Source: Candidatus Peregrinibacteria bacterium (lineage in GTDB: Bacteria > Patescibacteriota > Gracilibacteria > UBA1369). From it: a stretch of DNA of 64,000 bases. Below, piece after piece: positions 46,190 to 52,079 of the stretch. How positions within the stretch are numbered: position 1 is the first letter of the stretch; each line of letters begins with the position of its first letter. A program made the position numbers and the translations under genes. The stretch lies in contig PLYH01000001.1 in assembly GCA_003153355.1 (NCBI GenBank), positions 224,565-288,564 of the forward strand, given 5' to 3'. The notes under the pieces were generated by a model. It did not search any database and had not been told where the DNA came from. It was given only the letters and a program-made list of their open reading frames with translations.

Positions 46190-48814
46190 ATGTCACCGGA
46201 CCCAGCCAAAGAAAAAACTCAAAACGGCCCCGAAAAGCCTGAACCGCAAAAAATTCCGGAAGTTCAGCAGCAAACGCTGAACCCGGAACAGGCGAAAATC
46301 GCCGAACAGCGTTTAGAACGTAAAGATTTTATCAGTAAAGAAGATCTGTTAAGTCCTGAAAGCGTAAAACGCCTCAAGGAAATCAAAAACCGAAAACAGC
46401 AGATCGAAACTGAACAAACGAAACTTCAGCAGGAAGCGTCAACCAAACGGGCCAAAGAAACCTGGCCGGACAACAAACCCGAAACAGGATTCACTGATGG
46501 CTTTGCCCGAGACAAAATCAACTCAAAAGTCGAAGAAAAATTCGCGGAATATCAAAAAGAGTTCGAAGATGCAGGCCTTGGTGATCAGACGAACATCACC
46601 ATCATCAAACAGACCGCCAAAGAAATGATCTTTGACTATTACCAAAAAAACGGTCGGGACAACGATAAAACCCTCAGCTATGTCAAAGGCCAGCTCCTGG
46701 ACAAACTCCGCTACGTTACCGATAGCCTGAAACAAATTTTTGAAAGTAAAAAACACGGCTATAACAAACCTGTGGAAGTTATGGAAGCTTTCAGCAAATA
46801 CACCAAAGACGATTTCATGAAAGACGGCTATCTGCAGCCGGGAGCCTTCAAAGATTTTTTGCTCTTCGAAAAATCCACCTACGAAACCCAGGTCACGGAT
46901 TTTGCCAAATCGCTCGGACTCACCTTGGAAAAAAAGGATCTTGAAGGTGAAGAAACCACCCTGGTTGGAAAAAAACTTGGACCGAAAGAACTCATTGAAC
47001 AAAAACGTTTAAGTTTAAATAAAATCCGCATCACTGTACCAAAAGACGCCAAAGATTTGGATGCAACGCTGCAAACAGAAATTCCCAAAGCATTGCCTCC
47101 GATCGACGACAAAGAAGTAAAACAAAAAATCGTCGATTATCTTGCAGGAGAATTCAAAAAAAACACGCCTCAACCCGACCAAATATTTGAACTTTCGCCG
47201 GACGGCAAATGGAACAAAATCGACGTTGCGGTAGAAACCAAAGCCAAAGAAGAAACCAAGCAGCAAGTCGAGCAACAGGTCGCGCAAACCGCCTCGAGTA
47301 CTGAACAAAAGTCCGAAGGTTTCAGTTTTGACAAAGGCATCAAAAGTGTCGGCGATTTTATTCTGGAAATTTTCCGCTGGATCATGAAGCTCTTCGGAGT
47401 GAAGATGGGCGGAGCGGACATCGAAGACATGTTGAAAGAATGGAAAGACGTCACGCCGGAAGAGCGCGCCCAGATGAAAGAGTTTTACGGTTCAAGCAAA
47501 AAATTCTTTTCGGGAATGAACAATATTCAGGCCCTCATCAAAAGTCCGGATGACATGCGCCTCGTTCTCAATGCCAGAAAAGTCGACTCCAAACAAAACG
47601 AAACCTGGGACGCCTGGATACAGCGCCATCTGAGCGCTCCTGAACAGGAAGAAATCAACATCAGCAAAACCATCCAGCCCAAGGAGGTCGCCAACAAACT
47701 GATTTCCCCAAATTCCAACTTCGATAAACCGGCGCAAATCATCCAGCAGAATCAGGCACCGGGACAAAAACCCGGAGAAAATAAGAACGCTCCCGATGCG
47801 CCGAACGACCGTGCAAAAATTATCTTTGACCGCATGGAAAGCTCTCCGTACACTGGCGACTTAAAAACAATTCTTGACGCTTACATCGCTAAAAAAAGCA
47901 TCAAAGCTCAAAGCGGAACAATATCCGACTATATCAGCGGAATGACGGACGGCTTTCTAAAAAACCATCCGGACATCGGCGAAAAATACCAGAAAGGACA
48001 AATGACGATGCTGGATCTGAGTGAAACAATTTTCAACGATGTCTTTAACGCTGCTCTTCTGGATGCAAAAACTCCCGAGGACAAAGAAAAAATCAACAAA
48101 GTCCTCAGCCAGTTCAATGGAACGCTCGACACAATCCTGACCGAACGCGGCAAACCTGGAACAGAGGAGCCGCAAACAGAATTCGGTAATTTTGCAAAAG
48201 ACATCGAAGATCTGAATAAATTAAAAGCGTCTCCTGACTGGAAACAAAAACTTCCGCAAGTCATGGGGATAAACCTGGGAACGTTCGACGGCATAAGGAT
48301 GTATACCACTTCTGCGAACAATCTTGATCCTGAAATAAGAGATTATCTTCAAAAATTTCTGCAAACGTATAATGCATGGATCGAACAAGGATATACAAAA
48401 ATTGAAAGTTTATTTCCGGGAATGAACCGCGATGCTCCCCGGTCTCCACTGTACCAAAAAGAGATTACTGCAATAAAAAACACCCCAAACTGGCGGGCAA
48501 ATATTGAGCAACAGCTCAAAAACTCAAAAGATTTCCGGCTGAAATGTTATTTCATAGCAGAAGGTTTAGGAATAGACGACATACCGGATGCGGATGTTAA
48601 AGAATTTCTGGTTTTTTTGAAGAGCCAACTTACACCGACACTAAAAGCCCAGATGGGTACTGAAGTTGGAGAATTTTTCGGGATAAAAACACAATACGAA
48701 ACATTCGCGAAAGATTTCCCAGGGTTTGAATCACTGGTTAAATTTATTGATCTGCCGCCGGAAATCATTGATCCGATCATAAAAGCAAAAGCACCGGCTC
48801 AGATCACTTCTTAA
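46190..48814 (+). CDS. large hypothetical protein, 874 aa
   Basis: Polar and helical. A coiled-coil, Gln/Glu-rich start (1-85), several helical blocks, one hydrophobic/amphipathic helix (about 380-402, FILEIFRWIMKLFGVKMGG), a Gln/Pro-rich hinge (520-545) and a helical C-terminal half that repeats a W-containing unit (SPDWKQKLPQ and TPNWRANIEQ). No signal peptide and no family I recognise. It diverges from the sigma/FecR operon and overlaps the fbp gene by 11 bases at the end. Confidence 0.6.
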   Translation: MSPDPAKEKTQNGPEKPEPQKIPEVQQQTLNPEQAKIAEQRLERKDFISKEDLLSPESVKRLKEIKNRKQQIETEQTKLQQEASTKRAKETWPDNKPETGFTDGFARDKINSKVEEKFAEYQKEFEDAGLGDQTNITIIKQTAKEMIFDYYQKNGRDNDKTLSYVKGQLLDKLRYVTDSLKQIFESKKHGYNKPVEVMEAFSKYTKDDFMKDGYLQPGAFKDFLLFEKSTYETQVTDFAKSLGLTLEKKDLEGEETTLVGKKLGPKELIEQKRLSLNKIRITVPKDAKDLDATLQTEIPKALPPIDDKEVKQKIVDYLAGEFKKNTPQPDQIFELSPDGKWNKIDVAVETKAKEETKQQVEQQVAQTASSTEQKSEGFSFDKGIKSVGDFILEIFRWIMKLFGVKMGGADIEDMLKEWKDVTPEERAQMKEFYGSSKKFFSGMNNIQALIKSPDDMRLVLNARKVDSKQNETWDAWIQRHLSAPEQEEINISKTIQPKEVANKLISPNSNFDKPAQIIQQNQAPGQKPGENKNAPDAPNDRAKIIFDRMESSPYTGDLKTILDAYIAKKSIKAQSGTISDYISGMTDGFLKNHPDIGEKYQKGQMTMLDLSETIFNDVFNAALLDAKTPEDKEKINKVLSQFNGTLDTILTERGKPGTEEPQTEFGNFAKDIEDLNKLKASPDWKQKLPQVMGINLGTFDGIRMYTTSANNLDPEIRDYLQKFLQTYNAWIEQGYTKIESLFPGMNRDAPRSPLYQKEITAIKNTPNWRANIEQQLKNSKDFRLKCYFIAEGLGIDDIPDADVKEFLVFLKSQLTPTLKAQMGTEVGEFFGIKTQYETFAKDFPGFESLVKFIDLPPEIIDPIIKAKAPAQITS

Positions 48815-49721
48815 AGTAGCTCTGCACCAGTTCCACTTCCTTTTTGGAACCGATAAAGATCGGCGTTCGTTGATCGATTTTTTCAACGGTCATATCCAGA
48901 ATCGGACCGCCTGCCGAAAAAGCCACACCGCCGGCCTGTTCCATCAAAAACGCCATCGGTGCACATTCATAAATCAAACGCAATTTGCCGTCCGGCATTT
49001 CGCTGTAGCCGGGGTAGGTAAAAACCCCGCCGCCCTTTTTTAAAATCTGATTCACGTCCGGAACCATGCCGCCGGAATAACGCAGGGTATATTCATTCGT
49101 AAGCCAGAAGTGCATTAAATCCACATACCATTTCACCTGCGGGTCTGAACAAGCGCGCAAATTTCCCGGAGCAAACATTTTCTTGCTCTCCCCGACCTTC
49201 ACGTCCTCGTGATTCACCACAAAATCTTTCTTTCCCCAGTCATAAATAAATTCCGTCACGCCGTGCCCTACAGTGACCATAAACGTTAAACGCGGGCCGT
49301 AAACTGCAATAATGGCAGCAGCCTGATCTGAACCTTTACGTCCTACAAAACCTTTACCTTTGTAAACACCCACAATCGTTCCCACCGCCAGATTCACATC
49401 CACCAACGAAGACCCGTCCAAAGGATCATAAGCCAGGCTGTAGCCTTCATCGCCGGCTGGACCGTTCATGGACTCATCCAGCTCTTCCGACGCGACCATG
49501 GCCACGTAAGGATGTCTTGTTAACGCTTCAGTAAAAAGATCGTTGGAAAAAACGTCGAGCTTCAACTGACCTTCGCCGAAAACATTTTTAGAACCCGCGG
49601 CTCCCTCCAGTCCGCCGCGCATAGCTTCCGCAATTTTCGGAAAAATAGCCGCGACTGTTTTAAGAACGTCCCGCAAATTGGCCTCAACGCCCTGACGCTG
49701 AAGATATTCACCAAAAGTCAT
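48804..49721 (-). CDS. fbp: fructose-1,6-bisphosphatase class I
   Basis: Removes the 1-phosphate of fructose-1,6-bisphosphate, the committed step of gluconeogenesis, and possibly sedoheptulose bisphosphate. Metal site: ASEELDESMNG and YDPLDGSSLVDVNLAVGTI; substrate region: RYSGGMVPDVNQILKKGGG and LIYECAPMAFLMEQAGG. Length 305 aa fits class I. Carbon context: GAPDH, PEPC and R15P isomerase lie in this window. Confidence 0.93.
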   Translation of the reverse strand: MTFGEYLQRQGVEANLRDVLKTVAAIFPKIAEAMRGGLEGAAGSKNVFGEGQLKLDVFSNDLFTEALTRHPYVAMVASEELDESMNGPAGDEGYSLAYDPLDGSSLVDVNLAVGTIVGVYKGKGFVGRKGSDQAAAIIAVYGPRLTFMVTVGHGVTEFIYDWGKKDFVVNHEDVKVGESKKMFAPGNLRACSDPQVKWYVDLMHFWLTNEYTLRYSGGMVPDVNQILKKGGGVFTYPGYSEMPDGKLRLIYECAPMAFLMEQAGGVAFSAGGPILDMTVEKIDQRTPIFIGSKKEVELVQSYFKK

Positions 49722-49792: not shown

Positions 49793-50191
49793 TCAAGAAC
49801 CAACGTTGGCGTTCGCAAGAGCCGCGTCACCGCGCACAAACGTCACGCTGCCCGCCTTGACCATGCTCTGGATGCGCGCGCTCGCCAAAATCGAAGGCAT
49901 TGATTTCACTTTATCAATATTCATGTTGCTCACCTGGTTCTGATCCATAAGGGTCTGGCGATCAGCCTGCAAACGTTCCAGATCATAACCTTTCGTCGCA
50001 ACCTGATTAAAATGCATCAGATAAAGAACACTCATCGCAATCGTCACAACAATACCTGCCGCAATAATCGTCTTAGGACCAAAATCCAATTTCCATTTGA
50101 TGGGAGTCACGCGGATTTTACGGAAACTGCGCGCATTGGATGCTGCGAATTCTTGGCGGTATGGACTGCGGGTAAGAAGGAGTTGCGACAT
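49793..50191 (-). CDS. FtsL-like single-pass membrane protein
   Basis: 132 residues, basic cytoplasmic start (1-40), one transmembrane helix (about 41-61, TIIAAGIVVTIAMSVLYLMH), then a helical region (65-100) of FtsL/DivIC type. It follows rsmH on the same strand, as ftsL does in dcw clusters, which is the main support. Likely stabilises the divisome with FtsB/FtsQ. Confidence 0.7.
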   Translation of the reverse strand: MSQLLLTRSPYRQEFAASNARSFRKIRVTPIKWKLDFGPKTIIAAGIVVTIAMSVLYLMHFNQVATKGYDLERLQADRQTLMDQNQVSNMNIDKVKSMPSILASARIQSMVKAGSVTFVRGDAALANANVGS

Positions 50192-50307: not shown

Positions 50308-51696
50308 TTATATTTTTTCCGCGACGCGGAGCTTTGCGCTCCGTGACCGCGGATTTTTGGAAATTTCTGATTCTGTAGGAACGATCGGTTTTTTGGTCAC
50401 GATATGAAGCGTCGGTTCAAGATGAGTCGTCGTGAGTTTGTCGGGTTCGTTGATGTAATCGCGGGCGCATTCTTTAAAAAACTGTTTCACCACGCGGTCT
50501 TCCAATGAGTGATAAGCGATCACCGCCAGCCGTCCGTGTTTTTTGAGCATACTTACGGCCTGCTTGAGGGCGCTCAGCAGCACATCAAGTTCGTGGTTCA
50601 CTTCAATGCGCAAAGCTTGGAATACGCGGGTCGCCGGATGAAGATGACCTTTGCGTCCGATCAATTTTTCAATAAAGTTCGCAAGTTCCGTTGTGGTTTT
50701 AAAAGAACGGGCTTTTCTGCGTTTGGTAATTTCCTGGGCGATCTTGCGTGCAAAAGGTTCTTCTCCGTACACCTGGAAAATTCTGATCAGTTCATTCTGC
50801 CCGTAACTATTGATGACTTCAGCCGCGGTCAGAGACGCATTTTTATCAAAACGCATATCGAGCGGGCCTTCTCTCAAAAATGAAAATCCTTTCACAGGAT
50901 TATCCACCTGCGGCGACGAAAGTCCAAGATCCAACAAAATGGCATCAACGGCGTTGATGTTGAGCGTTTTTAATTCCGCTTCCAGATTGCTGAAGTTGGA
51001 ACGCACGAACATCACCCGATCTCCGAATTGCTGTAAATTTTGACGGGCTGTAGCTAAATTATCATCATCAACATCAAAACCGATCAATACGCCGTCTGAA
51101 GGCATCTGTTCCAGCATACGCATCGAATGGCCGCCAAGTCCCAGTGTCCCGTCCATCACAACTTTTTTATCTGCGAGCTGTAAATTTTCCAGAACCTCCT
51201 GAACCAACACCGGTTCATGACGAAAAGGAGATGGCTGAGCCTGCGTTGGCATCTGGGGCTGAACAGCCGCTTTAACCGTCGAAACTTCCTGCATTTTTTT
51301 AACAGCAGGCTTTGCGGTCTTTTTCGCCGGCTTTTGAACAACCGGTTTCTTTAAAATCTTTTTCAATTTTTTTGGCGCAGCTTTCTTTTTCAAAACTTTT
51401 ACCTTCTTCGTCACCTTTTTTATAACTTTTTTTCCTTTCCGAAGGGTCTTCGGCATCTTTTTTAACTTTTTCGGTGATTTCTTCACTTTCCGAGGCATCT
51501 TCGATACTTTTTTTGCCGGTTTTTGAACACGCTTCTTAAAACGACTGATGGCTAAGGCCGAATGTCGTTTTGAGCGAAAACGACCCATAAGTTTTTTCAT
51601 GAAACCTTTCTTTTTTGCAGGTTTACGAACAACAGCCTTCTTTTTCTTAAGCTTTATTGATCGCTTTGGTTGTTTTGATTTGGTTTTCTTCTTCAT
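50308..51696 (-). CDS. rsmH: 16S rRNA m4C1402 methyltransferase RsmH with long lysine-rich N-terminal tail
   Basis: Methylates N4 of C1402 in 16S rRNA. The catalytic part (from about residue 160, FRHEPVLVQEVL) has the SAM loop VVMDGTLGLGGHSMRML, ILLDLGLSSPQ, FSFLREGPLDMRFD and the end AYHSLEDRVVKQFF. In front are about 158 extra residues, nearly all Lys/Arg/Pro/Ala (KKPAKKTAKPAVKK), like the tail of histone H1 or Hc1. Shorter internal starts (e.g. Met149) exist; the ATG at 51696 is used because the frame is open and coherent and a promoter lies 60 bases upstream. The tail may bind rRNA or DNA. Confidence 0.88.
   Translation of the reverse strand: MKKKTKSKQPKRSIKLKKKKAVVRKPAKKKGFMKKLMGRFRSKRHSALAISRFKKRVQKPAKKVSKMPRKVKKSPKKLKKMPKTLRKGKKVIKKVTKKVKVLKKKAAPKKLKKILKKPVVQKPAKKTAKPAVKKMQEVSTVKAAVQPQMPTQAQPSPFRHEPVLVQEVLENLQLADKKVVMDGTLGLGGHSMRMLEQMPSDGVLIGFDVDDDNLATARQNLQQFGDRVMFVRSNFSNLEAELKTLNINAVDAILLDLGLSSPQVDNPVKGFSFLREGPLDMRFDKNASLTAAEVINSYGQNELIRIFQVYGEEPFARKIAQEITKRRKARSFKTTTELANFIEKLIGRKGHLHPATRVFQALRIEVNHELDVLLSALKQAVSMLKKHGRLAVIAYHSLEDRVVKQFFKECARDYINEPDKLTTTHLEPTLHIVTKKPIVPTESEISKNPRSRSAKLRVAEKI
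51551..51584. repeat. dispersed palindromic element, copy 1 (inside rsmH extension)
   Basis: 34 bases: GCTAAGGC, then a stem GTCGTTTT/AAAACGAC with loop GAGCG (stem at 51564-51584). Lies in the rsmH reading frame around residues 38-49 (GRFRSKRHSALA). Aligned with copy 2 (56820-56854), differences in the stem are compensating (T-A versus C-G). Confidence 0.65.
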
Positions 51697-52079
51697 ATGT
51701 TCAAAAGTTGTGAACGATATGTGTATAACTTTTTTATACTGATGAATTGAGTTTAAAATAGGGTTATTTTACCTATAAGTCAAACCTTAACCCACAAACG
51801 GTGCAAAAATTGTAGTCGGTGACGGGATATTCAAAGAGTTTTAAGGCTTTCTATAAATGAAAAACCGTTTTATCAAAAAATATTGCAGCCTCACATGTTT
51901 ATTGCATAATATTTTTATACTCAAAAGCAATCAATGGCTCCAGTAAAGTAAAAAACAACCTATAATAAAGCTGGTGAGCACAAAAGTGGATCACTGATCA
52001 AAACTTTTTGGCTTTATGAAAAGATCTCTTCCTTGAATCGCTGCAAAAATCTACAATAAAGAAGTTCCTAAAAACAAAT
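51697..52079. other. 383-base intergenic region between rsmH and the exporter gene
   Basis: AT-rich. It contains the rsmH promoter (51755-51783). No other convincing gene or RNA was found; mraZ, the usual neighbour of rsmH, is not here. A plus-strand -10-like TACAAT lies near 52053 for the exporter gene, without a good -35. Confidence 0.5.
51755..51783 (-). promoter_or_regulatory. promoter of rsmH
   Basis: On the minus strand TTGACT (51778-51783), 17-base spacer, TATTTT (51755-51760); about 59 bases before the rsmH ATG. Confidence 0.65.

Follow-up and report, generated by a model that had tools for sequence, protein, structure and literature searches.

The single-copy rsmH gene of the source genome (G000) encodes a near-universal rRNA methylase which here very probably carries, in front of a complete catalytic domain, a lysine-rich N-terminal tail of 157 residues. 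Shorter tails of similar composition are present on the RsmH of two further genera of the same family. The tail may hold the enzyme on the rRNA of the assembling 30S subunit, a reading towards which we lean, if cautiously.

The rsmH gene and its neighbours

The window, that is the whole stretch of DNA analysed (64,000 nucleotides), contains the gene with its core, tail and downstream neighbour as follows.

50308..51696, minus strand: rsmH, 462 amino acids, 16S rRNA (cytosine-1402-N4)-methyltransferase with an N-terminal tail (PF01795 and TIGR00006 matches)
50308..51225, minus strand: RsmH catalytic core, residues 158-462 plus stop (alignment A1; pLDDT mostly above 80)
51226..51696, minus strand: RsmH lysine-rich tail, residues 1-157 (composition, open frame, low pLDDT, tailed relatives)
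49793..50191, minus strand: ftsL-like gene, 132 amino acids (NF053549 FtsL_Actino, 37.2 bits, below the cut-off of 55; position as in rsmH-ftsL operons)

The open reading frame, for which the preliminary description had given frame and coordinates exactly, is a genuine RsmH as judged by its full-domain profile match and its motifs. In profile searches residues 158-462 scored 372.3 bits against PF01795 (cut-off 27) and 343.7 bits against TIGR00006 (cut-off 154.3). The core motifs DGTLGLGGHS, DLGLSSPQVD, HPATRVFQALRIEVN, YHSLEDR and NPRSRSAKLR are all present, and the invariant columns of alignment A1 sit in the DGTLGLGG, DLGLSSP, HPAT, YHSLED and NPRSRSAKLR motifs. Identity of the core is 50-57% to family members in the same alignment; the nearest named relatives belong to Candidatus Peregrinibacteria and related Patescibacteria (L037, 53% identity). 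The source genome (1.46 Mb, 99% complete), that of a small uncultured bacterium, holds one copy of the gene. The protein is like known RsmH/MraW (PF01795, TIGR00006), for which we take 1m6y and 3tka to be the solved structures, in its full catalytic domain, its complete set of motifs, its single gene copy and the ftsL-like gene that follows, while it differs by the lysine-rich N-terminal tail; the genome differs in having no recognisable mraZ.

The ftsL-like gene lies downstream of rsmH in the same orientation, and next after it on the minus strand comes a class-1-type fructose-bisphosphatase gene (48804-49721). The two genes rsmH and ftsL-like are adjacent although the source genome has no MraZ above the cut-off, the best PF02381 match being one of 12 bits inside a frame of 2088 amino acids.

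Properties of the lysine-rich tail

The tail had been put at about 158 residues; its lysine-rich character stands, and its length is corrected to 157 since RsmH homology starts at residue 158. It is composed of 56 K (36%), 9 R, 15 V, 14 P and 13 A among others, with a single acidic residue (1 E) and a net charge of +64. Counted over all frames of the window, the lysine-richest stretch of 50 amino acids is located in the tail (25 K; runner-up 16). Three PAKK motifs are found (KPAKKKG, KPAKKV and KPAKKT). AlphaFold2, run with an alignment of eight, gave pLDDT values of 33-47 across residues 1-150 and mostly above 80 across the catalytic domain, so that the tail is predicted to be intrinsically disordered on a confident core.

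The Pfam search of the tail returned nothing better than E 0.1 and no H1, Hc1 or Hc2 domain, and a known domain was rejected on this basis. The wording "histone H1-like" of the preliminary description holds for composition (K/P/A, three PAKK) and not for descent. Set beside the H1-like family, the tail is K/A/P-rich, carries PAKK and is predicted to be disordered, and lacks the family's domains; TopA, HupB and AlgP have H1-like tails which it may resemble in action, without being demonstrably one of them. A mobile or repeated module was likewise rejected, as tblastn against its own genome found the tail itself and an overlapping stop-containing frame alone. The tail of the relative G005, searched across five genomes, matched none but itself.

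That the frame is open ahead of HEPVL, as had been claimed, was borne out: the tail stretch has no stop in the RsmH frame against 4-12 in each of the five other frames. First-order random sequence of the same make-up has a mean of 6.3 in-frame stops and was stop-free in 1 of 2000 draws, giving P ~0.0005 each for the 157 stop-free codons of G000 and the 122 of G005. The lysine codon AAG is commoner in the G000 tail (24/56) than in the core (3/22; P 0.018). Avoidance of poly-A in the lysine codons of the tail, considered as a sign of translation, was not significant (P 0.09 to 1.0).

Tails among relatives

A comparison of RsmH N-termini in related genomes, which the preliminary description had proposed, uncovered two further lysine-rich tails, both in other genera of the same family and both starting from their own ATG. 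The tail of G005 has 122 residues (39% K, net charge +46, one PAKK) and that of G007 has 41 (37% K, net charge +12, one PAKK). Among the nine family genomes with rsmH, the visible starts other than those of the tailed genes fall few residues before the domain, and the N-terminal extension is at most 14 residues in 41 of the 41 other order members with a measurable RsmH start, in agreement with the earlier statement that RsmH normally begins within a few residues of HEPVL. Stops in the tail region of relatives, which would have spoken against the tail, were not encountered, and no broken lysine-rich tail was found: wherever relatives have the segment it is open and lysine-rich, and the others do without it.

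A wider survey took in overlapping sets of 89 genomes from the order, 288 from the class and 380 from the phylum, and among the matches listed every other RsmH frame is shorter than that of G000. Long RsmH frames found elsewhere in the phylum (G158 with 430 amino acids, G015 with 380, G426 with 375, and others) were rejected as tails, not being lysine-rich; their extra open frame looks either like a variable N-part or like non-coding DNA ahead of the gene. The loci of named genomes have no lysine-rich RsmH extension, a few of them having longer open N-parts. A full-text literature search, outside which most subscription papers fall, did not turn up a bacterial RsmH described with a lysine-rich tail.

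In a maximum-likelihood tree of catalytic domains G000, G005 and G007 form one clade with moderate support (93/79). Their RsmH cores are ~59-67% identical between the three genera, and tail-to-tail alignments between genera hardly beat those of composition-matched shuffles (P 0.05-0.13), so that across the tailed genera it is composition that is conserved, as far as alignments tell, and not a motif. Alignment at the level of shuffles is usual for a region selected on its composition, or for one that is unselected. Since the tailed sequences form one clade, a single gain is the simplest history. The tail would have been gained once, in the ancestor of the three genera of this one family within a class-Gracilibacteria-like lineage of the Patescibacteria, downstream of the former start codon and ahead of the catalytic domain; its length would since have drifted (41, 122 and 157 residues) with the lysine-rich composition kept.

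Two further observations concern the distribution of RsmH itself. The RsmH domain was not found in four of 13 family genomes (G004, G006, G008 and G011, 95-97% complete), compared with four of 76 among the order's remaining genomes; G006 belongs to the same genus as the tailed G007. These absences are either real losses or assembly gaps. In the class families f29 and f33 and in G099 of family f27 the RsmH frame contains 3-17 TGA codons, as expected for lineages using TGA as sense, and TGA as sense in these more distant class members presumably fits the class Gracilibacteria.

Leader element and start codon

The region upstream of the long frame, and the alternative start within it, contain the following features.

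51250..51252, minus strand: codon of Met149, alternative start (conserved leader and promoter attach elsewhere, upstream of Met1)
51698..51735, minus strand: rsmH leader element AAAAAAG-TTATACACA-TA-TCGTTCACA-AC-TTTTGAACA, 38 nt, ending 1 nt before the ATG
51720..51728, minus strand: leader unit 1, TTATACACA, matching TTWTNCACA
51709..51717, minus strand: leader unit 2, TCGTTCACA, degenerate (TTGTTCACA in sister families f23, f27 and f31)
51698..51706, minus strand: leader unit 3, TTTTGAACA, one change from TTTTNCACA (sister families have TTTTACACA, TTTTCCACA or TTTTGCACA)
51755..51783, minus strand: sigma-70-like promoter TTGACT-17-TATTTT, consensus match only

Allowing at most two mismatches, the 31-bp pattern TTWTRCACANNNNGTNCACAASWTTTGAACA is found upstream of rsmH in 56 of 88 order genomes, once per genome with the exception of one genome having rsmH on two contigs; it occurs once in the source genome, and the reversed pattern, used as a control, gave no match in the 88 genomes. 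The promoter announced by the preliminary description is there as a sigma-70-like match to consensus only, and the spacing between the TTGAC box and the leader element that follows it is fixed, at 52-57 nt in all 54 order sequences. The gap between element and ATG is 1 nt in G000, 11 nt in G005 and 14 nt in G007, compared with 0-46 nt across other order members. The tail of each of the three tailed genomes is situated between leader and domain, a place where other members have at most 14 residues.

These data bear on whether translation could start at Met149, the codon named in the preliminary description, giving an RsmH of normal length with the open frame upstream as an untranslated leader. 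Such a start would leave an ordinary extension of nine residues ahead of the RsmH homology, yet the order-wide leader element and the promoter precede Met1 and are far from Met149, in G005 and G007 a lysine-rich tail has its ATG 11-14 nt after the same element, and a stop-free leader of 444 nt in exactly the RsmH frame is very unlikely. We regard a start at Met149 as highly improbable, and a mis-called start for the long frame as very unlikely. Three independent lines uphold the tail as a genuine part of RsmH: relatives share a tail, the leader puts the start at the long ATG, and stops are absent. From sequence, the tail would be produced in the cell.

A putative DnaA-box array in the leader

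The leader is made up of three 9-mers with a period of 11 bp. We take TTWTNCACA to be the DnaA-box consensus, and one of the three units in the source genome matches it perfectly. In families f31, f27 and f23 phased triplets with the same 11-bp period are found, e.g. TTATCCACA-nn-TTGTTCACA-nn-TTTTCCACA, and across 20 regions upstream of rsmH, taken from the class's other families, perfect TTWTNCACA boxes total 18 where 2.4 are expected. The source genome carries dnaA; an oriC for calibration of its DnaA boxes was not found in 6 kb around this gene. In B. subtilis rsmH, ftsL and pbpB are in one operon (PMC11019786) and the promoter region of ftsL is occupied by DnaA in living cells (PMC8203912). 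The likeness to this operon lies in the same genes and in putative DnaA boxes upstream of rsmH; the difference is that here a phased putative array of three boxes lies in the transcribed leader and is found order-wide. Putative control of rsmH-ftsL by DnaA via the leader array is plausible and, on these sequence patterns, in our judgement probable.

Two other readers or roles of the element were rejected. MraZ was set aside as its reader because the genome has no recognisable MraZ. Unit 2 resembles 16S rRNA just before C1402, and rRNA mimicry was discarded because the sister-family units all approach the DnaA-box consensus. A bolder scheme for these reduced bacteria, in which DnaA would act directly on the array in place of MraZ, rsmH would join replication, ribosome maturation and division, and the tailed RsmH of one clade, besides being a methylase, would serve as an assembly factor or a nucleoid protein through bulk binding of nucleic acid, is in our opinion improbable.

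Possible function of the tail

RsmH has to dock on the 30S subunit, and for this reason we infer that the tail may prolong docking via exposed rRNA. The reading we cautiously prefer, by analogy with other systems, is that of a clade-specific disordered polycation which would hold RsmH on rRNA or on the assembling 30S subunit. Through non-specific contacts with the rRNA backbone of the assembling 30S, the tail would make RsmH locally more concentrated around helix 44 and C1402 and lengthen its stay there, an effect parallel to that of the lysine repeats holding topoisomerase I on DNA. In keeping with this, lysine/arginine-rich low-complexity segments of prokaryotes are over-represented among proteins that bind DNA or RNA (PMC6821194). 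A point against the tether is that lysine repeats of other bacterial proteins are mostly DNA-binding; another is that the RsmH of all other relatives has no tail, and because the enzyme works tail-less in these, the tail should be dispensable for catalysis in general.

Three systems offer comparisons. METTL15, the mitochondrial RsmH orthologue, presumably seen on pre-SSU particles in structures 7pnx and others, likewise has the RsmH fold with lineage-specific extra sequence. By cryo-EM this insertion contacts rRNA h23, h24 and h45 (PMC9200640); it is internal, and not a lysine-rich N-terminal tail. In actinobacterial topoisomerase I, also a housekeeping nucleic-acid enzyme, H1-like lysine repeats slow DNA release and raise processivity (PMC7398561), and slower substrate release is the model that the RsmH tail may follow; the enzyme differs in having a DNA substrate and a C-terminal tail, and in being unrelated. 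Mycobacterial HupB has a tail with PAKK/KAAK motifs (PMC5676037), but is a DNA-architectural protein and bears the tail at its C-terminus.

Composition does not discriminate between an RNA-binding and a DNA-binding tail, since the affinity of a polycation for RNA is no less than for DNA. RsmH could be a nucleoid-associated protein, or be held at the nucleoid, through an H1/HupB-like tail. This would agree with the three PAKK motifs, which are quoted as a hallmark of HupB and H1/H5 (PMC5676037), and with the particular enrichment of lysine-rich low-complexity regions in proteins binding DNA (PMC6821194). The enzyme attached to the tail, however, acts on rRNA, the gene is in single copy in an rsmH-ftsL setting and is not obviously one for an abundant architectural protein, and the tail has no Hc1/H1 domain in Pfam. 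DNA binding is considered unlikely, and rRNA the better guess as target of the tether.

The fourfold variation in length, the unconserved sequence among three genera and the absence of the tail from all other relatives would also suit a nearly neutral low-complexity segment, grown from DNA rich in lysine codons and persisting because it is harmless. Against this, 36-39% lysine and a strong positive charge have been kept in three genera whose cores have diverged, the tails have no frame breaks, and the helical amphipathicity of the G000 tail exceeds that of its shuffles (P <0.002), though that of the G005 tail does not (P 0.35). We hold a neutral origin and persistence to be doubtful.

The same amphipathic pattern, with its best window at residues 83-100 of G000, could point to another polyanion or to the membrane (polyphosphate, anionic lipid), with RsmH placed near the divisome. 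For such a role speak the operon with ftsL, a divisome gene, and the H1-like protein AlgP, reported to organise polyphosphate (PMC9239181), while the pattern is not seen in the G005 tail and a membrane domain is absent. This possibility seems rather remote; we know of no link between RsmH and the membrane.

Significance

Experimental data on gene regulation in Patescibacteria are, to our knowledge, almost non-existent, and the leader element provides an independent, order-wide hypothesis, namely that DnaA may control the rsmH-ftsL operon in this group. As to the tail, a methylase found nearly everywhere would have gained a long polycationic extension in one lineage, and since tailed and untailed relatives occur within one family, what the tail does for 30S binding and C1402 methylation is directly testable.
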